Assembly (NCBI GenBank): GCA_003022945.1
Contig: PXRZ01000037.1
Location: 1 to 52,420, forward strand
Length of the DNA: 52,420 nucleotides
Reading direction: 5' to 3'
DNA from: Halobacteriales archaeon QS_8_69_73
GTDB lineage: Archaea; Halobacteriota; Halobacteria; Halobacteriales; Haloarculaceae
A model generated the notes under the pieces. It had not been told where the DNA came from, made no database searches, and worked only from the letters and a program-made list of their open reading frames with translations. Made by a program: the position numbers and the translations under genes. Positions 8,885 through 17,911 of this stretch are shown piece by piece (position 1 is the stretch's first letter; each line of letters starts with the position of its first letter).

Positions 8885-9940
8885 TCACCGACAGAATACG
8901 TGAGTCGCGTAGACCTCCTGACTTTCGGTGATGTACACACCGACACCGGACGACTCGTACTCGCGTAGTAGGTTCTTCCTGTGTGGGTCTGAGTTCATCC
9001 ACAGTTGGACCAGCCCATCGACCAATTCTGCTTCGGAATCGTACACTTCCGTTCCGTTCTCGGTTCTGACACGCGTGTCGATATAAGTCATCGCGATATT
9101 TTCATCCGGAGTGCAACTGTACCGCTTTCCGATACCTTCTCCATCGGGTGAGGTGTGTGAAAAGTATCCTCTCGTTGCCATATCTTCGGAGTGGTCCCGT
9201 GCTGCAGTTCGGACGGGAGAATCGACGGCCAATGGCCGCAGAGATTGCTTTCCACGTTCAATTCTGATTTCGTTGATGCTTTCGAGGACCAGCCGCTCGA
9301 CTCTCCGTTCGTCGAACCCGTTCGAAGTGTCTACCTGGTTCGACTCCGTCTGTGCTTCACCACTCTCATCGCTTCGTTGATCTTTGTTCTGTCTTTCAGG
9401 ATTTGCGACGCCCTGTCGGTCCTCGCCCTGTCTTTTATTTTTCTCAAGTTCCTGCTCGGTCGGGGTCGCCTCGTCCGCAGATTCGACCGAGTCCACCAGA
9501 GGGGTGACTCGATCCGTAGCATCCGAGACGGCGCCGGAAACCGCGGCAGGTGCGAAGAGCCCCGAAACTGCGAGCACTACCAACAAGAGCCGTGGTCCTG
9601 CGACAGTTCGGCGTAACTGCTGCGATGGGACTGACTTCGTGAACCACCGGAGTACGGGCCATCCTGCAGTCCATCCACAGCGACCACAGCGCAGAATCAA
9701 ATCGCGCTCGAATCGATAGATGTACCGTCCGCAGTTCGGGCATGAATCGCCATCGTTTCGATTCCCACCGTGGTAGTACCAGAACTTGCTCCGGAACGTC
9801 CAGGCGATTCCCCAGCGGACGGCGATGTACACGATAATGCCAGCAAGGATGGCAACCACTGACCGATATCCTTGATCGTGAAGATACGTCCCTCCCGCGA
9901 GCGCGGCCGCAAGAGACAGTGCAATCTGCCCCCAGTACAC
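8885..9940 (-). CDS. CAP (SCP/PR1) domain exoprotein with zinc ribbon and membrane anchors
   Basis: 351 aa from a GTG at 9940. Two hydrophobic segments lie at about 5-50, then a zinc ribbon (CPNCGRY...LRCGRCGW) at about 68-92, then a third hydrophobic segment near 116-138, a charged Glu/Gln/Asp-rich linker, and a C-terminal CAP domain from about 215 with DHSEDMATRGYFSHTSPDG and a late NSDPHRKNLL...GVGVY signature. CAP domains are usually outside the cell; here the domain would be tethered by the preceding span. The base composition is clearly lower in GC than the neighbours, suggesting transfer or a different constraint. The function is unknown. Confidence 0.8.
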   Translation of the reverse strand: MYWGQIALSLAAALAGGTYLHDQGYRSVVAILAGIIVYIAVRWGIAWTFRSKFWYYHGGNRNDGDSCPNCGRYIYRFERDLILRCGRCGWTAGWPVLRWFTKSVPSQQLRRTVAGPRLLLVVLAVSGLFAPAAVSGAVSDATDRVTPLVDSVESADEATPTEQELEKNKRQGEDRQGVANPERQNKDQRSDESGEAQTESNQVDTSNGFDERRVERLVLESINEIRIERGKQSLRPLAVDSPVRTAARDHSEDMATRGYFSHTSPDGEGIGKRYSCTPDENIAMTYIDTRVRTENGTEVYDSEAELVDGLVQLWMNSDPHRKNLLREYESSGVGVYITESQEVYATHVFCR

Positions 9941-10014: not shown

Positions 10015-10574
10015 CTATTGAATGAGGCCGGTGACGACCCGGGATTCGGCCTTCCGGAGGTGTTCGTCGACGGTCGACGGCGCACAGCCGAGGTTGTCGG
10101 CGATGTCCTTGTGCGTCGCCTGCCGCGGGACGTCGTAGTACCCCTCCTCGACGGCCGTCTCGAACACCTCGAGCTGGCGGTCCGTCAGCGGCGACAGCAG
10201 GTCCTCGCCGCCGGGGACGTAGGTAGTCCCTCGTCGGCGAACTCCAGCGGCGTGTCGACGATGAGCGCGTTGTCCCGGGCGATCTCCAGCAGTACCCCCC
10301 CGTCGTCGACGGCGTCCGCCTGGACGAAGGCGTGGTAGCCGTTGCCGGCGAGGTCGACCACGTCGTGGTCGACCACCCCCGCCCGCTCCTCGAGCGTGTC
10401 GTCGAACCCCGCTCCGTCGCCGGTCACCCTGTAGAGCAGCACCGTCGTCCCGTCGGCCCGCGCGTCGACGTGCAACAGGGCCTCCCGCGTGATCCCGTCG
10501 TGGCCGGCGAGAAACCGGTCGATGGGATGGATGGCCCGGTCTGTCGGCGAGAGGGTGAGCTTCAGGTACTTCAT
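10015..10574 (-). pseudogene. Bat-type HTH transcriptional regulator, frameshifted
   Basis: The ATG at 10574 opens MKYLKLTLSPTDRAIHPIDR, the N-terminus of the haloarchaeal Bat-like regulator family, and this frame runs to VDTPLEFADEG. The family's C-terminal HTH_10 domain (LTDRQLEVFETAVEEGYYDV, then HKDIADNLGCAPSTVDEHLR) follows in a different frame, ending at 10015. The frames meet at about 10216-10228, and one missing G in the GAGGGACT run would explain it. If real, the protein loses its DNA-binding domain; a consensus sequencing error is equally possible. Confidence 0.75.
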
Positions 10575-10696
10575 CGTATAGGGTCTGTACGATACCGGGG
10601 TGCAACGGGGATTTAAGATTATGACAAAACCTTCCAAAGGTCGTCGCCCGACGCCGGGGTCGCAAGCGCTTTGACGACGGCCCACCGACGGCGGAC

Positions 10697-11105: not shown

Positions 11106-11872
11106 GTGCGCCGACGAGATGTGATGGCCGCTCTCGGGGCGGCGACGGCGACCGCCGGCTGTGTCACCGTCTACGCCGGCCGGACGTCCGACGACGGAGA
11201 GGTCGAGACGCCGATCCTCGCCGAGCATGATATTCCCCCGATCATCTACGGGGAGGAACCCTCTCCGAGTGACATCCGCGCCGTCGATGACCCGGCGTTC
11301 GGCCCCGGCGACGCGTGGCCGGCCGACCCCGACGGCTGCCGGCTGCTCGAGGTGACGGCGATAATACTCGGGCTGGAGGGCGGGATCGGGCTGGAGGGCG
11401 GGATCGGGCTGGAGGGCGGGATCGGGCTGGAGGGCGGCGATGTCGCGTGCGCGTGCCCGCCATCGTAAGCGCCCATGAGGCCGTCGATGACCTCGGCGGC
11501 CCGGTGCTCGTGACGCACCGTCCCGTCTGCTGCAGCGGGACGGTTGCCGAGCGGGTGGTTGACGGTGCCCCGACGCGGTCCGACGCCTCGGGGCTGCTGT
11601 GGACTCCACCCCGCGTCCGGACGGCCGCCGCCGAGGACGGCCAGGTGTTCTCGGACGGCGAGGCAGGCGTCGCCGACGGCGGCAACCTCGTGTACGACGA
11701 CTGGACCGGCTCCCACTGGTGCAGATGCTCGCGCAGGGGATCCGGTCCGAGGACCGAGGACCGGCTCTCGGTACGACCCTCGACGGTGACGACGTGGGTC
11801 GACTGACGCGACCGACACCCCGACGCGGAGGTGTTGCCGCCGCCGGGTTTCGTCGTCGATCCGCCGATATGA
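11106..11872 (+). pseudogene. DUF3179-family lipoprotein, N-terminal half, multiple frameshifts and a nonsense codon
   Basis: GTG at 11106 opens MRRRDVMAALGAATATAGC, a twin-arginine-like lipobox, then IPPIIYGEEPSPSDIRAVDD. An 18-bp repeat follows, then GDVACACPPS and a stop. One base away the frame resumes as IVSAHEAVDDLGGPVLVTHR, CCSGTVAERVVDG and SGLLW, matching the DUF3179 pattern. Further frame changes near 11710-11770 separate YDDWTGS, VQMLAQGIR, VRGPRTG and RLSVRPSTVTTWVD. An in-frame TGA at 11804 then interrupts a readable HPDAEVLPPPGFVVDPPI that ends at 11872. At least three frame changes and one nonsense codon make this a pseudogene. The matching C-terminal half is at 38299-38693 on the other strand. 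Confidence 0.8.
11370..11438 (+). repeat. 18-bp tandem repeat, about 3.8 units
   Basis: Unit GGGCTGGAGGGCGGGATC repeated head to tail, encoding GLEGGI repeats within the DUF3179 pseudogene. The family would have only one short Gly-Leu-Glu stretch here, so this looks like a slippage expansion. Confidence 0.9.
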
Positions 11873-11965
11873 GGGTCGTCTATCGGTCGTCAGTTGAAAC
11901 CCCGCGAATGCGGTTATAGCCGGCCGGTTATTCCAGCCGCCCGGTCCGTCGGCATCCCGTGGCCA

Positions 11966-11980: not shown

Positions 11981-11998
11981 GGGATGGTGCCGTTGGGT

Positions 11999-13333
11999 AT
12001 GTCACGTGACGTGCGACGGCGCGACATGGTGAAGGGCATCGGAATCGCCGGGGTCTCGTTCGGTCTCGCCGGGTGCTTCGGTAACGGCGGGGGCAACGGC
12101 GGCGACGATACCGACACCGGCAACGGTGGCGGCAGCGGCCTCGAGATCAACCCGACCGTCGAGGACACCGAGACCCGCTCGAACGCCGGCACCGAGGCCG
12201 CACAGCGACTCGTCAGTCAGGGCATCCCGATGGTCTGTGGGACCGCCTCCTCCGGCGTCAACGTCCCCGTCTCCGACGGCGTTCTCGCGGACAACGAGGC
12301 CGTCGGCTGCTCGCCGTCTTCGACCGCCGTCTCGGTGACCAACCTCGAGGACGACGACTACATCTTCCGGACGGCACCCTCCGACATCCTCCAGGGCACC
12401 GTCGACGCCCAGGTCATGTCTGAGCGGCTCGGGGCCTCGTCGGTCTCGACGCTGTACGTCGACAACGACTACGGCCAGCAGCTCAACGACCAGTTCGCCG
12501 AGCAGTTCGACGGCGAGGTGCTCAGCCAGAACGCCTACGCACAGGGTGGGTCGTCGTACGGGTCCACGATCCAGTCGGCGCTCAGCGGCGACCCCGACGG
12601 ACTGTTCGTCGTCGGCTACCCGGAGGACGGCATACAGCTCTTCCGGGACTACTACTCCGCCAGCGACGGCAGCGAGGAGATCCTGATCCCGGACGGCCTG
12701 CGCGACGGCGCGCTACCGAGCCAGGTCGGCAACGACATGGCGAACGTCACCGGCACCGCGCCCGCCGCGGGCGGCCCGGCACAGGAGGCGTTCACGGCGG
12801 CGTTCGAGGAGCGGTACGGCGAGTCCCCCGGCGTGTTCACCTCCCAGTCGTACGACTCGGCCGCCGTCCTCATTCTGGCGAACGTCGCCGCCGGCGAGAA
12901 CGACGGGACGGCCGTCCGCGACCAGATGCGCAACGTCGCCAACCCGCCTGGAGAGGAGATTACCCCCGACAACTTCGTCGAGGGCGTCGAGCTGGCCGCC
13001 AACGGCGAGCAGGTCAACTACCAGGGCGCCTCCTCGGACGTCAACTTCAACGAGGCGGGCGACCCCGCCAACGCAGCCTACGACATCTGGGAGTTCGACG
13101 GCCAGGACAACCAGTCCACCTCGGTCGCCGACACCCAGTCCTTTGAGGGCGACAACCCCGACGGCGCCGGCCCCTCGGCCGAGGAAACCCCCGGCAGCGA
13201 CCCGGGTCGGACGGTCGAACTCGGCATCCTGCTGCCGACCTCCGGTAACCTCGCGTCCGTGGGCGGACCGATGGTGCAGGCCGCCGAGATGGCCGCCCTC
13301 GAGGTCAACGAGGCCGACCTCGACATCAGCTGA
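11999..13333 (+). CDS. ABC transporter substrate-binding lipoprotein (LivJ-like), apparently circularly permuted
   Basis: 444 aa. Twin-arginine-like start with lipobox LAGC (Cys26) and a Gly/Asp-rich linker. The Peripla_BP_6 fold then begins at its second strand (LEINPTVEDTET from residue 48) and continues normally through VCGTASSGVNVPVSD, YIFRTAPSDILQG, STLYVDNDYGQQLND, DGLFVVGYPEDGIQLF and NYQGASSDVNFNEAG. After a second acidic linker (about 380-404) the last 40 residues read VELGILLPTSGNLASVGGP then MVQAAEMAALEVNEADLDIS, which is the usual first strand and helix of this fold. The order is therefore 2...n,1. It would bind branched-chain amino acids or similar small solutes outside the cell for the convergent liv operon at 13659-17911. 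Confidence 0.9.
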   Translation: MSRDVRRRDMVKGIGIAGVSFGLAGCFGNGGGNGGDDTDTGNGGGSGLEINPTVEDTETRSNAGTEAAQRLVSQGIPMVCGTASSGVNVPVSDGVLADNEAVGCSPSSTAVSVTNLEDDDYIFRTAPSDILQGTVDAQVMSERLGASSVSTLYVDNDYGQQLNDQFAEQFDGEVLSQNAYAQGGSSYGSTIQSALSGDPDGLFVVGYPEDGIQLFRDYYSASDGSEEILIPDGLRDGALPSQVGNDMANVTGTAPAAGGPAQEAFTAAFEERYGESPGVFTSQSYDSAAVLILANVAAGENDGTAVRDQMRNVANPPGEEITPDNFVEGVELAANGEQVNYQGASSDVNFNEAGDPANAAYDIWEFDGQDNQSTSVADTQSFEGDNPDGAGPSAEETPGSDPGRTVELGILLPTSGNLASVGGPMVQAAEMAALEVNEADLDIS

Positions 13334-13658: not shown

Positions 13659-14420
13659 TCAGCCGCCGAGGAAGTCGCGTCTGACCTGCTCGTCGTCCAG
13701 CAGGGCGGTTCCGCTGTCCTCGTAGCGGTTCTGGCCGTCGACGAGAACGTAGCCGCGGTCGCAACGGCGCAGCGCCTCCTTGGCGTTCTGCTCGACCATC
13801 AGGATGGCCGTCCCGGAGTCATTGATCTCGTCGACCTTCTCGAACATCTCGTCGACGAGGTCCGGCGCCAGCCCCGCCGACGGCTCGTCGAGCAGCAGCA
13901 TGTCGGGCGACAGCATCAGTGCCCGCCCCATCGCGAGCATCTGCCGCTGGCCGCCGCTCATGGTGCCGGCCGTCTGGCTCTCCCGCTCTTCGAGGATGGG
14001 AAACCGCCGGAACACCTCCTCGAGGGCGTCGTCCGGCACCTCGTCGAGGATGTACGCGCCCATCTCGAGGTTCTCCCGAACCGACAGCGAGTCGAAGATG
14101 TTCTGATTCTGCGGAACGTAGCCGAGCCCCTCGTAGATGATCTCGTCGGGCGGCATCCCGGTGATGTCGGCCCCGCCGAACGTCACCGTCCCGCCCATGT
14201 GAGAGGTGAGCCCGAAGACGGACTTCATCACCGTCGACTTGCCGGCGCCGTTCGGGCCGACGATGGTGACGTACTCGTCGTCCCGGACGTCGAGGTCGAC
14301 GTCGGTAAGGATCTGGAGGTCGCCGTAGCCGGCGTCGAGGTTCCGCACCTGCAGCAGCGCGTCCGACCACCGGTCGATCTCGGTGGCGGCGCCGCTTGCG
14401 GCGTCCGTCTCGGCGCTCAC
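13659..14420 (-). CDS. livF: Branched-chain amino-acid-type ABC transporter ATPase (LivF)
   Basis: 253 aa. Walker A GPNGAGKST, Q-loop region VPQNQNIF, signature MSGGQRQ, Walker B MLLLDEPSAGL and switch histidine region LMVEQN are all present, with the short LivF-type C-terminus. It hydrolyses ATP to drive solute uptake with LivG, LivH and LivM. Last gene of the minus-strand operon; its ATG (14420) overlaps the livG stop (14417). Confidence 0.93.
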   Translation of the reverse strand: MSAETDAASGAATEIDRWSDALLQVRNLDAGYGDLQILTDVDLDVRDDEYVTIVGPNGAGKSTVMKSVFGLTSHMGGTVTFGGADITGMPPDEIIYEGLGYVPQNQNIFDSLSVRENLEMGAYILDEVPDDALEEVFRRFPILEERESQTAGTMSGGQRQMLAMGRALMLSPDMLLLDEPSAGLAPDLVDEMFEKVDEINDSGTAILMVEQNAKEALRRCDRGYVLVDGQNRYEDSGTALLDDEQVRRDFLGG

Positions 14421-15322
14421 GTCTCGACCTCCCCGCCGAGATACGCCTCAAGGACGCGCTCGTCGGCCTTGACGTCTTCCGGCGTCCCCTCGGTGAGGAC
14501 GCTGCCCTGGTGCATCACGATGACGCGTTCGCAGTTGTCCATGATGAGATCCATGTCGTGTTCGACGATGAGGAAGGTGTAGCCCTGTTCGCGGAGTTCG
14601 TGGAGGTGCTCCAAGAGCCGCTCCTCCAGCGACGGATTGACGCCGGCGAACGGCTCGTCCAGCAGGAGCACGTCGGGGTCGGTCAACAGCACGCGCGCCA
14701 GCTCCAGCAGCTTCCGTTGGCCGCCCGAGAGGTTGCCCGCGTACTCGTCGGCGAGGTGGTCGATGTCGAAGAAATCCAGGGTCTCCCAGACATCCTCGAG
14801 CACCTCCTCTTCCTCTTCGACGACGGACCCGCGGGTGAACGGCAGGACGCTCCGCCACAGCGACTCGCCGCGCTGGTGCATCGGCGCCAGCATCAGGTTC
14901 TCGAGGACGGTCATCTCGCCGAGTTCGCGGGCGATCTGGAACGTCCGGGCGAGCCCCCGGTCGGCGATCTGGTGGGGGGCGAGCCCGGTGATGTTCTCGC
15001 CGTTGAACCGGACGGTACCGGCGGTCGGCTCGAGAACGCCGGTGACGCAGTTGAACGTCGTCGACTTGCCGGCGCCGTTCGGGCCGATGAGCCCGGTCAG
15101 ACTCCCCTGTTCGACCTCGAAGGAGGCGCCGTCGACGGCCGTCAGTCCGCCGAATCGCTTGGTCAGATTCTCCACCTGCAGCGGGATGGCCTCGGGGACG
15201 TGCTTTGCGGCCTCCTCGGCGGCCGAGTCCTGTGTTTCGGCCTCCTCGTAGTCGACGTCGGCATCCTCGGGGACGTTCGCCTGGACCGCCTCCTCCGGCG
15301 GGTCGATGTCCGTGTCACTCAT
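14417..15322 (-). CDS. livG: Branched-chain amino-acid-type ABC transporter ATPase (LivG)
   Basis: 301 aa from the ATG at 15322, which sits inside the livM stop (ATGAGTGA); another in-frame ATG three codons upstream (15331) is possible. A 40-residue acidic N-terminal extension precedes the ATPase core, where LivG proteins usually start at once. Walker A GPNGAGKST, signature LSGGQRK, Walker B VLLLDEPFAGVNP and the LivG-type insert with NLMLAPMHQRGE are visible. Partner of LivF in the ATPase heterodimer. Confidence 0.92.
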   Translation of the reverse strand: MSDTDIDPPEEAVQANVPEDADVDYEEAETQDSAAEEAAKHVPEAIPLQVENLTKRFGGLTAVDGASFEVEQGSLTGLIGPNGAGKSTTFNCVTGVLEPTAGTVRFNGENITGLAPHQIADRGLARTFQIARELGEMTVLENLMLAPMHQRGESLWRSVLPFTRGSVVEEEEEVLEDVWETLDFFDIDHLADEYAGNLSGGQRKLLELARVLLTDPDVLLLDEPFAGVNPSLEERLLEHLHELREQGYTFLIVEHDMDLIMDNCERVIVMHQGSVLTEGTPEDVKADERVLEAYLGGEVET

Positions 15323-16679
15323 CCTCGACACCTCCGTCGGCGGCGACCGCGCGGTCGCCGTCGGACCGGCGGTCCGGCCGCGACAGCGAGATGGCGGCGG
15401 CCTGCTCCTTCCGGTGGCCGAGCAGCCCCTGCGGGCGGTTGTGCATCAGGTAGATGATGACCAGCCCCATGATGAGCAGCTGGAGACTCTGGAGCTTGGT
15501 GACGGTGTAGAGCAGTAGGGGGATAACGTCGAAGCTCCCGGCGATGGGTGCCATCGCCTCGCCGAACCCGGTCTGTCGCGCGAAGCGACCCAAGTCCGTC
15601 TCCGTCAGCTTGTCGATGACGCTCTGCAGAAACCGTGGCCCGCGGTAGAGAACGGCGGCGAACAGCGCTCCGCCCATCACGCTGCCGGTGTTGGAGCCGG
15701 CGCCGCCGATGATCAGTGCCACCCAGATGTAGAACGTCGTGTCCGGGCGGAACTGCGTGGAGTTGATCGAGCCGCCGCCGCCCCCGGCGTTCATGAACCA
15801 CAGTACGCCGAGCAGCCCCATCAGCCCGCAGCCGATCATGAAGACGACGATCTTGAACCGGTCGGTGTCCTTGCCGAGGGAGTTGGTCGCCTCCTCGTCC
15901 TCGCGGATGGCCTTCAGGACGCGCCCGAACGGCGAGTTGCCCATCCGCTGCAGCAGCGCGTAGTACCCTATCATGAAGGCCAGCAGTATCAGCGCGTATC
16001 CGATGCGGTCGGCCGTGACCGGGCTGCCGGTCACCTGCTCCGCCGCCACGGTGAGGCTGTCGTAGACCCCGCCGAGCAGCAGGGCGTCGAAGAGGAGTTC
16101 GACCTCGCTGCCCCAGTCGAGCTGGAGTCCGTCGCCGCCGCCGAACCCGACGGACAGGCCGCCGACGTCGAAGGAGGCGATGTTTCCGTTCCGAACCGAC
16201 AGCCGGAAGATCTCGCTGACGGCGACGGTGACGATGGCGAGGTAGTCGGCCCGCAGCCGGAGCGCCGGCAGCGCGACGAGCAGGCCGAAAAGCGCCGCCG
16301 CGACCGCGCCGGCCAGCATACCGATCGGAAGCGGGAGTCCGAGTCCACCGGTCGCACCGCCGACCGCACCGCCGCCTCCGGCCGCCACCGGGTCCTTGGA
16401 GACGATCGCCGCCACGTAGACGCCGATGCCCATGAATCCGATGACGCCGATGTTGAACAGACCGGTGTACCCCCAGTGGAGGTTCAGCGCCAGCGCGGCG
16501 ATGGCGAACAGGCCGATCCACCTGGTCAGCGACGTCATGTTCGAGACGGGGTCGATTCCGGCGACGCTGCCGAGGACCAGATACACCGCGTAGATGACGG
16601 CCAGCAGCCCGATAATCTTCGCCGGATCGCTGCTCCCGACCGCGGAGACGCGGTCCGGAACTCTGTCGCTGACGCTCAT
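15315..16679 (-). CDS. livM: Branched-chain amino-acid-type ABC transporter permease (LivM)
   Basis: 454 aa with 8-10 predicted membrane spans. LivM-type motifs include ALNLHWGYTGLFNIGVIGFM, then ALRLRADYLAIVTVAVSEI, FGRVLKAIREDEEATNSLG and the late GALFAAVLYRGP. The cytoplasmic EAA-like loop that contacts the ATPases is the RVLKAIREDE segment. Gly-rich loops around 135-150 and 335-345 are typical insertions in haloarchaea. The ATG overlaps the livH stop. Confidence 0.92.
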   Translation of the reverse strand: MSVSDRVPDRVSAVGSSDPAKIIGLLAVIYAVYLVLGSVAGIDPVSNMTSLTRWIGLFAIAALALNLHWGYTGLFNIGVIGFMGIGVYVAAIVSKDPVAAGGGGAVGGATGGLGLPLPIGMLAGAVAAALFGLLVALPALRLRADYLAIVTVAVSEIFRLSVRNGNIASFDVGGLSVGFGGGDGLQLDWGSEVELLFDALLLGGVYDSLTVAAEQVTGSPVTADRIGYALILLAFMIGYYALLQRMGNSPFGRVLKAIREDEEATNSLGKDTDRFKIVVFMIGCGLMGLLGVLWFMNAGGGGGSINSTQFRPDTTFYIWVALIIGGAGSNTGSVMGGALFAAVLYRGPRFLQSVIDKLTETDLGRFARQTGFGEAMAPIAGSFDVIPLLLYTVTKLQSLQLLIMGLVIIYLMHNRPQGLLGHRKEQAAAISLSRPDRRSDGDRAVAADGGVEDE

Positions 16680-17911
16680 GCTGTCGTCCTCCCCGCGAAC
16701 AGTCCGGACGGCTTGACGACCAACACCACGATCATCAGCGCGAACGCGGAGGCCTTCGCCAGCCCACTCGGGATGAAAACCGTCGAGAGGTCCCGCGCCA
16801 GCCCGATGATGAGTCCACCGGCCATCGCGCCGTAGATCGACCCGATGCCGCCCAGGATGACCGCGGCGAACACCAGCAGCAGGAACAGCCAGCCGTCGAA
16901 CCAGCCGAACGTCCCCCGCCACAGCACCCAGGTGTAGCCGGCGACCCCGGTGAGGCTCCCGCCGAGCACCCACGTGAACCGGATGACCCGCTCCGTCGGG
17001 ATGCCGGTCACGCGGGCGAGGTCCTTGTTGTCGGCCATGGCGCGCATCGCCTTGCCCAGCTTCGAGGTCTGCAACAGCACGTGGACCCCGAGCATCAGCG
17101 ACACCGCGATGACGAGCAGGGCGAGGTCGTGTGCGTTGGCGCTGATACTGCCGCTCAGTTCGGTGATGACGAATTCCCACGTGGGCGGGCCCTCTGCAAG
17201 GGCTCGGTCCTCGGGGTTGCTACCAAGGACGGCGACATTCCACACGCTATTCGAGCCCGCGTTGGTCGAGAACTTCTCGATGCCCCAGATAAAGTTGACG
17301 AGATACCGGATGACGAGCGCGACGCCGATGCTGGTGATCAGCAGCGAGACGCTCGAGCGGTCCCGAATGGGTTCGAACGCCAGCCGGTCGACGAGCAAAA
17401 CGACGCCGATGGTCCCGACGCCGGCGACGAGTAATCCGAGCACGATGGCCGCGAAGGCCAGCGAACCCCCCGTGATGGCCAGTCCCAACTGGCTCGCCTC
17501 GACCTTCATGAGCGCCAGGGTACCGATGTCGTACGTCGCGGCGCCGACCACGCCCGCGACGATGTACGACGTCATCGCCCCTATGAACGCACCCACGGTG
17601 ATGAAGTCGCCGTGAGCGAAGTTCGCGAACCCGAGGATGCTGTAGGTCATCGAGAGGCCGATGCCGGCCAGCCCGATGATGAGCCCTCTCAGGATACCGT
17701 TGATGACCTTGCTCAGGAAGCTGTCCAGCGGCTCGACCCCGCCCATGACCTTGGTCGCGCCCAGCCCCGGAATGTTCACGACGACGTCGACGCCGCTCAG
17801 CTTCAGGATCAGGTCGGCGACCAGATAGAGGCCGATGAACACGAGTAACCCGTTGAAAGGGTTCTCTACGAGCCCCTCGGCCCGCGTTCTATATCCGTCT
17901 GCGACACCCAT
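16676..17911 (-). CDS. livH: Branched-chain amino-acid-type ABC transporter permease (LivH)
   Basis: 411 aa, the first gene of the operon. Membrane protein with the LivH signatures GLAGIGLSMTYSILGFANFA and GDFITVGAFIGAM near the N-terminus, LGKAMRAMADNKDLARVTGI as the ATPase-contact loop and GGIGSIYGAMAGGLIIGL near the end. Forms the transmembrane channel with LivM. Length is longer than the ~300 aa bacterial form because of loops near 155-185 and 225-250. Confidence 0.93.
   Translation of the reverse strand: MGVADGYRTRAEGLVENPFNGLLVFIGLYLVADLILKLSGVDVVVNIPGLGATKVMGGVEPLDSFLSKVINGILRGLIIGLAGIGLSMTYSILGFANFAHGDFITVGAFIGAMTSYIVAGVVGAATYDIGTLALMKVEASQLGLAITGGSLAFAAIVLGLLVAGVGTIGVVLLVDRLAFEPIRDRSSVSLLITSIGVALVIRYLVNFIWGIEKFSTNAGSNSVWNVAVLGSNPEDRALAEGPPTWEFVITELSGSISANAHDLALLVIAVSLMLGVHVLLQTSKLGKAMRAMADNKDLARVTGIPTERVIRFTWVLGGSLTGVAGYTWVLWRGTFGWFDGWLFLLLVFAAVILGGIGSIYGAMAGGLIIGLARDLSTVFIPSGLAKASAFALMIVVLVVKPSGLFAGRTTA

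Follow-up and report, generated by a model that had tools for sequence, protein, structure and literature searches.

Evidence for recurrent circular permutation of a lipid-anchored binding protein at one haloarchaeal importer locus

Our analysis of the window (i.e., the whole 52,420-nucleotide stretch from Halobacteriales archaeon QS_8_69_73) points to recurrent circular permutation at a single locus, in which the lipid-anchored binding protein of a LivFGMH-type importer has been permuted at the DNA level (probability roughly 0.78). Its function is probably ordinary, namely that of the binding protein of an ABC importer for amino acids or amides. We refer to the first unit of the canonical protein as piece C and to the parts that follow as A and B, so that the canonical chain reads C-A-B and the window protein A-B-C. 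In addition, we found a third order, B-C-A, in which the stretch matching query residues 193-443 comes first and the stretch matching 48-196 comes after it within one protein. This third order is common across Halobacteriales and is found in Haloferax, Halorubrum, and Haloquadratum, among others. Since the nearest relatives of the window protein in our trees are B-C-A and not canonical proteins, the simplest reading of the window gene is that an already permuted gene was permuted again.

The reading frame at 11999-13333 is open, and its translation agrees with that given in the earlier note; other possible starts lie upstream (an in-frame ATG at 11984, noted by eye, and a TTG at 11894 that opens the longest frame). 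The parts of the gene and its transporter neighbors are listed in Table 1. The Pfam profile Peripla_BP_6 (PF13458) matched residues 43-313 with its positions 36-311 (E = 7.5e-34; 118.4 bits against a cut-off of 31.7), placing the protein among the Peripla_BP_6 or LivJ-type (HAAT) substrate-binding proteins. When the last 45 residues were searched alone, profile positions 1-35 were recovered at residues 405-439 (E = 2.3e-5), a match whose 24.7 bits lie under the whole-protein family cut-off of 31.7. The two stretches are complementary, with the cut at profile position 35/36. Because the chain runs through positions 36-311 and then 1-35, it contains a single copy of the first strand-helix unit, located at its C-terminus, and is cut at strand 2; this bears out the proposal in the earlier note that the canonical first unit lies at about residues 405-444.

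Table 1. Positions of the permuted binding-protein gene, its parts, and the adjacent transporter genes in the window
Feature	Position	Strand	Basis
Permuted LivJ/HAAT-type substrate-binding lipoprotein, A-B-linker-C, 444 aa	11999..13333	+	Frame, Pfam, BLASTP
Twin-arginine signal peptide and lipobox (MSRDVRRRDM...GLAGC), residues 1-26	11999..12076	+	By sequence
Gly/Asn/Asp-rich tether, residues 27-47	12077..12139	+	By sequence
Piece A, strand 2 to lobe-2 helix SYGSTIQSALS, residues 48-196	12140..12586	+	
Piece B, GDPDGLFVVGYP to QSFEGD, residues 197-385	12587..13153	+	
Linker, residues 386-401	13154..13201	+	
Piece C, canonical strand 1-helix 1 unit at the C-terminus, residues 402-444	13202..13330	+	
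LivF-like ABC ATPase, convergent with the binding-protein gene, synteny marker	13659..14420	-	
LivG-like ABC ATPase	14417..15331	-	
LivM-like permease, probable start MSVSDR at 16679	15315..16679	-	
LivH-like permease	16676..17911	-	

Comparison with individual proteins gave the same picture. BLASTP matched the C unit of the window protein to the N-terminal unit of canonical proteins (L021, 1.3e-6; L009, 2.4e-6; L010, 3.7e-4; others weaker), and for all 10 solved relatives found, the best-matching stretch lay within residues 21-318 of the window protein and omitted the C-terminal unit. Each part occurs once, in rotated order and within a single chain, as in a natural permutant. The AlphaFold2 model of the window protein has a pLDDT of 92.8 and a pTM of 0.90 and displays a two-lobed type I fold, its superposition spanning model residues 7-343 only; with the corresponding values for a B-C-A protein at 91.6 and 0.90, chains of both orders are predicted to fold confidently. 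Selection on the pieces is also apparent, since each of them gave a dN/dS below 1 in all nine comparisons made (piece C offers few sites), and relatives in both the A-B-C and the B-C-A order show that the arrangement is conserved. Collectively, the complementary Pfam stretches, the same order in relatives, the low dN/dS, and the confident predicted fold uphold the claim of a clean in-frame permutation. What did not hold is the assumption that a canonical protein would be the nearest relative.

A chimera formed with a second gene nearby would be another explanation of the rotated order. We searched 4,998 bases upstream and 5,667 bases downstream of the window gene, as well as the flanks of three further A-B-C loci (L033, L034, and L057), and found in these flanks neither another copy of A, B, or C nor a convincing remnant of any of them (the best match was at chance level, E = 0.12). 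On the basis of these flanks, the chimera was rejected.

Orders were assigned by BLAST mapping together with piece-specific HMMs, and the samples comprised the family (146 genomes, 123 with a match), contigs of named genomes (37 loci), and the taxonomic order, where 216 of 293 genomes matched the B-C half. The frames across 199 loci included 138 B-C-A, 55 C-A-B, 9 A-B-C, and 8 that were partial, split, or odd (duplicates included), counts that should not be taken as frequencies because the loci were picked by their matches. Two proteins in which no C match was found (L002 and L181) were labelled C-A-B because A precedes B. After removal of identical sequences, B-C-A was present in 81 genomes of eight family codes and 30 named records (Haloferax, Halorubrum, Halobellus, Haloplanus, Haloquadratum, Halorussus, and Halospeciosus among them), C-A-B in 56 genomes and 1 named record, and A-B-C in 5 genomes. 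The genus of the window contains all three orders, and four genomes of the set (G104, G115, G279, and G309) carry a canonical and a B-C-A copy together. A scan of the phylum with a B-C-A alignment (246 genomes) returned at least 20 full-length matches, all of them in Halobacteriales among the matches listed; those listed from outside were partial or split and in canonical order, with no permuted form among them.

The search for orthologues with the same order, suggested in the earlier note, was productive, since A-B-C was found in four other genomes (G125/L033, G133/L034, G139, and G140/L057). Two of these relatives belong to the window clade (98% and 90% identity) and two to another clade (66-68%); all are in frame, with a clean A-B junction, a signal peptide of their own, and low dN/dS. 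The five A-B-C genomes are all incomplete assemblies (completeness of 57-88%), so that no finished isolate genome among those examined has this order; B-C-A was found in many isolate genomes. An assembly or binning artefact behind the A-B-C order of the window, for which this incompleteness speaks, is nevertheless highly improbable given the four in-frame relatives in two clades, their signal peptides and low dN/dS, and the presence of all four liv genes at each of the four A-B-C loci with enough flank.

A further observation concerns the canonical genes of G211, G170, G197, G218, G238, G191, and others, in which C-A is followed by B and a stop is counted inside the B match. This is probably the gene's own stop, with the profile running on into the B-C linker, and such stop counts are not evidence of broken genes.

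All three orders occur at one syntenic locus, convergent with livFGMH. The liv-like genes at 13659-17911 in the window, named LivF, LivG, LivM, and LivH from their sequences, would encode an importer of this type beside the binding protein. A LivF-like gene on the opposite strand and within 2.5 kb was found at 44/47 B-C-A, 20/20 C-A-B, and 4/4 A-B-C loci (the latter being those with enough flank), and all four liv-like genes were found on the opposite strand within 7 kb at 43/47, 20/20, and 4/4 loci, respectively (67/71). Within one genus, moreover, a C-A-B genome (G049) and a B-C-A genome (G048) share one and the same regulator-like gene upstream of the binding-protein gene and the same LivF, LivG, and LivH genes downstream. 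Given the shared locus and neighbors, rearrangement in place is most likely.

Several features upstream of the window gene were observed in passing. On the minus strand at 10015-10685, the N-terminal half of a regulator (10185-10685), which we take to be Bat/HTH_10-like, and an HTH-looking tail seem to be in different frames, and this regulator possibly carries a frameshift; several relatives match its N-terminal half at the equivalent site. Just upstream of the gene, on the plus strand (11106-11468), is a small frame, noted by eye, that looks like a lipoprotein and contains LEGGIG repeated in tandem and in frame. The minus strand at 8885-9940 encodes a membrane protein with a presumably CAP/SCP-like C-terminal domain, which is conserved at the equivalent place in L033.

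The junctions are informative about how the orders are related. Nearly all distinct B-C-A proteins (119/121) stop 0-5 residues past the end of the piece-A model, whose last element is the helix SYxSxLxxALS, the exceptions being L136 (25 residues past) and L041 (holds N), and 120/121 start at piece-B model position 1 or 2, with a strand like PDxLxVIGYP (L008 starts at position 4). The A-B border of the window protein is the very site at which its B-C-A relatives are opened, piece A being first in the former and last in the latter. At the other junction, many B-C-A relatives read ...DLDL-LEVN... without a break, confirming that LDIS and LEIN are the two sides of one strand, as had been suggested. 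In the window clade, C ends in LEVNEADLDIS or ..LDI and A starts with LEIN or LEVN; in G139 and G140, C ends some residues earlier (AELPAKMW..), as a separate event would predict. The A-B junction is equally clean in A-B-C and canonical proteins, and in every order the signal peptide remains in front. That of the window protein closely resembles the one of the B-C-A relative L025, and Pfam TAT_signal matches the equivalent part of a Haloferax B-C-A relative, below the family cut-off.

The linker across the old ends measures 15-31 residues between HMM hits (median of 18). The window clade has a linker of the type NPxGxGPSADxxPGG, alike in its A-B-C and B-C-A members and absent from the canonical proteins examined; because the linkers are alike, A-B-C most simply derives from a chain in which B and C were already joined. 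Linkers differ in type from clade to clade, and those of clades I and III have a short SAD-x-PG-like motif in common. A piece-C start of the form F-EAxVGVLMPETG was seen in most B-C-A rows of clade II and in canonical L026 and L194, and in no other row examined. Overall, the B-C-A proteins of Haloferax, Halorubrum, Haloquadratum, and others resemble the window protein in locus and in the B-linker-C join (for the clade I relatives compared, identity to it is 60-71% over piece A and 65-77% over piece B); unlike the window protein, their chain is opened in lobe 2 and not in lobe 1, which would place the anchor on the other lobe. Canonical LivJ/LivK-type proteins of Peripla_BP_6 (e.g., PDB 3td9 and 4gnr) are C-A-B and do not have the B-C linker.

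Trees of rotated sequences (59 and 63 rows) placed the window clade beside B-C-A L008/L036 (100/100) and G139/G140 among other B-C-A sequences; frames missing a piece or too short were left out as rows, and L041 was kept out of structure alignments. In a tree of 87 sequences (thinned from 184 distinct ones) rooted with canonical outgroups, the canonical proteins were at the base, with B-C-A in 5 places and A-B-C in 2 (7 changes); its deep branches are weakly supported. Trees of single pieces, built without the two longest rows (L002 and L189), required 8 changes for A and 6 for B, each with A-B-C in 2 places. They differ in their placement of B-C-A clade IV: the A-only tree joins it to canonical L167/L179/L187/L196, and the B-only tree, in which L026 is not the sister of clade II, joins it to clades III and V together with canonical L009.

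The unpermuted neighbors provide a record of their own. A tree of LivF, LivG, and LivH (52 rows thinned from 69; LivM was in no tree) likewise gave 7 changes with A-B-C in 2 places, and the nodes joining A-B-C to their B-C-A sisters had support of 100/100 and 97/89. Both A-B-C groups fall together with three B-C-A loci in one 8-row clade (99/93), so that here a single origin of A-B-C followed by two reversals costs only one change more. The AU test rejected A-B-C as one clade (p = 5.6e-4 for the binding protein and 4.4e-5 for LivFGH), and it rejected all permuted rows as one clade (p = 1.3e-5 and 8.6e-5, respectively); these one-clade rejections leave room for a single origin followed by reversals. 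Piece rotation as an artefactual cause of the tree pattern was checked with the single-piece trees and the unpermuted neighbors, and was rejected. Collectively, two origins of A-B-C are well supported, at least three origins of B-C-A are likely, and five are possible.

Two histories compete with recurrent permutation. B-C-A might have arisen once, early in Halobacteriales, so that nested C-A-B genes would be reversals or replacements by canonical copies, and A-B-C might likewise have arisen once with reversals. We find this unlikely, even though it explains readily why 119-120 of the 121 distinct B-C-A proteins are cut identically across all clades, why clades I and III share a linker motif, and why both copies coexist in four genomes; the weak deep branches, a B-only tree that joins clades III-V, and the one-change margin in the LivFGH tree also leave it room. 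It has to contend with the rejection of a one-clade permuted topology on two data sets (a test that does not extend to reversals), with a number of reversals far exceeding 5 gains when counted on the drawn tree with canonical outgroups, with clade-specific linker types, and with the signature that clade II shares with canonical L026/L194.

Less probable still is that B-C-A spread by gene transfer and recombination, with resident canonical genes converting A and B piecewise while the junctions stayed in place. Haloarchaea recombine readily, and conversion of this kind would fit the identical cut position, the coexisting copies, and the different placement of clades II and IV by the A-only and B-only trees. 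Against it, those two trees concur on where A-B-C belongs, and the unpermuted LivFGH neighbors mix B-C-A and C-A-B in the same way, so that near-complete conversion would be needed several times.

We therefore favor recurrent permutation, for which the following route is proposed. Several events (3 to 5) would have turned C-A-B into B-C-A. Each would have opened the same lobe-2 loop, which lies between the helix SYxSxLxxALS and the strand like PDxLxVIGYP, and a linker of ~15-31 residues would have come to span the old ends; A-B-C would have arisen twice from B-C-A. At the DNA level, a gene may well have been duplicated in tandem, fused in frame, and then trimmed, and the low-complexity Gly/Asp DNA of the tether may have assisted. 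Since the signal peptide and the tether always lead the chain, a new cut would shift the membrane anchor. From topology, the anchor would sit at the strand-1 edge of lobe 1 in canonical proteins, on lobe 2 in B-C-A, and on lobe 1 at strand 2 in the window protein; on this reading, several events would have carried the lipid anchor from lobe 1 to lobe 2, and a second permutation would have returned it to lobe 1 in the lineage of the window gene. Ligand binding and closure are expected to be as in an ordinary LivJ, and the change of tethered lobe might alter docking on LivH/LivM. We consider it evenly balanced that the permutation is convergent in the strict sense, with three to five haloarchaeal lineages each opening the same lobe-2 loop on their own, lobe 1 reopened in two descendants by a second permutation, and selection acting on which lobe is anchored. 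If so, circular permutation would be a repeatedly used evolutionary switch and not a one-off accident.

Among the frames of the 199 loci, we found no tandem-fused intermediates. At the g46 loci L132, L133, L134, L135, L139, and L155-L158, two B-C-A genes are in tandem, ~1.4-1.6 kb apart, and one wider g46 locus (L216) showed no liv genes within 16 kb. Such tandem pairs are the raw material that a duplication route needs.

Comparisons of circular permutations often involve distant proteins, for which the path is lost. With three orders at one locus, some of them in different species of a single genus, and unpermuted neighbors as an independent record of descent, the route, the number of origins, and the reason become directly testable. 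A genetically tractable host such as Haloferax would allow the duplication and trimming route, the origin number, and the anchor lobe and LivH/LivM docking to be addressed. For annotation, it should be borne in mind that the canonical profile matches permuted proteins only as two separate stretches.

We found no published account of permuted haloarchaeal binding proteins in the open-licence literature, a body that leaves subscription journals mostly outside. The view that such permutations are rare in binding lipoproteins has to be set beside a published precedent, TpMglB-2 (Tp0684) of Treponema pallidum, a crystallized, circularly permuted type I binding lipoprotein of a probable ABC importer (PMC4990184). 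As far as the consulted part of that report goes, the protein was proposed as "Type Ic / Cluster Bc," and its authors suggest tethering as a possible reason for the permutation (PMC4990184). Like the window protein, TpMglB-2 is a natural permuted type I binding lipoprotein with an extra linker crossing between the old ends. Unlike it, TpMglB-2 belongs to the MglB sugar-binding family of treponemes and Gram-positive bacteria and has the first three N-lobe strands moved to the C-terminus; the window protein is a Peripla_BP_6 member in which only the first strand-helix unit was moved, and therefore falls outside Type Ic / Cluster Bc as described there, and the B-C-A proteins are cut in the other lobe. 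The TpMglB-2 account, in the portion consulted, covers one topology, with neither a second permutation nor multiple origins (PMC4990184). Several orders or intermediates within one family are on record, for example for transhydrogenases and DNA methyltransferases, and the consulted sections of one source give duplication or fission-fusion models (PMC3320104). Our proteins resemble these in having more than one order in a family (PMC3320104); to judge from those sections, they differ in that the orders can be traced from species to species within a genus at a single syntenic locus and that a second permutation apparently lies atop the first. Permuted type I binding lipoproteins are thus already known, and the surprise here is their recurrence at one locus.
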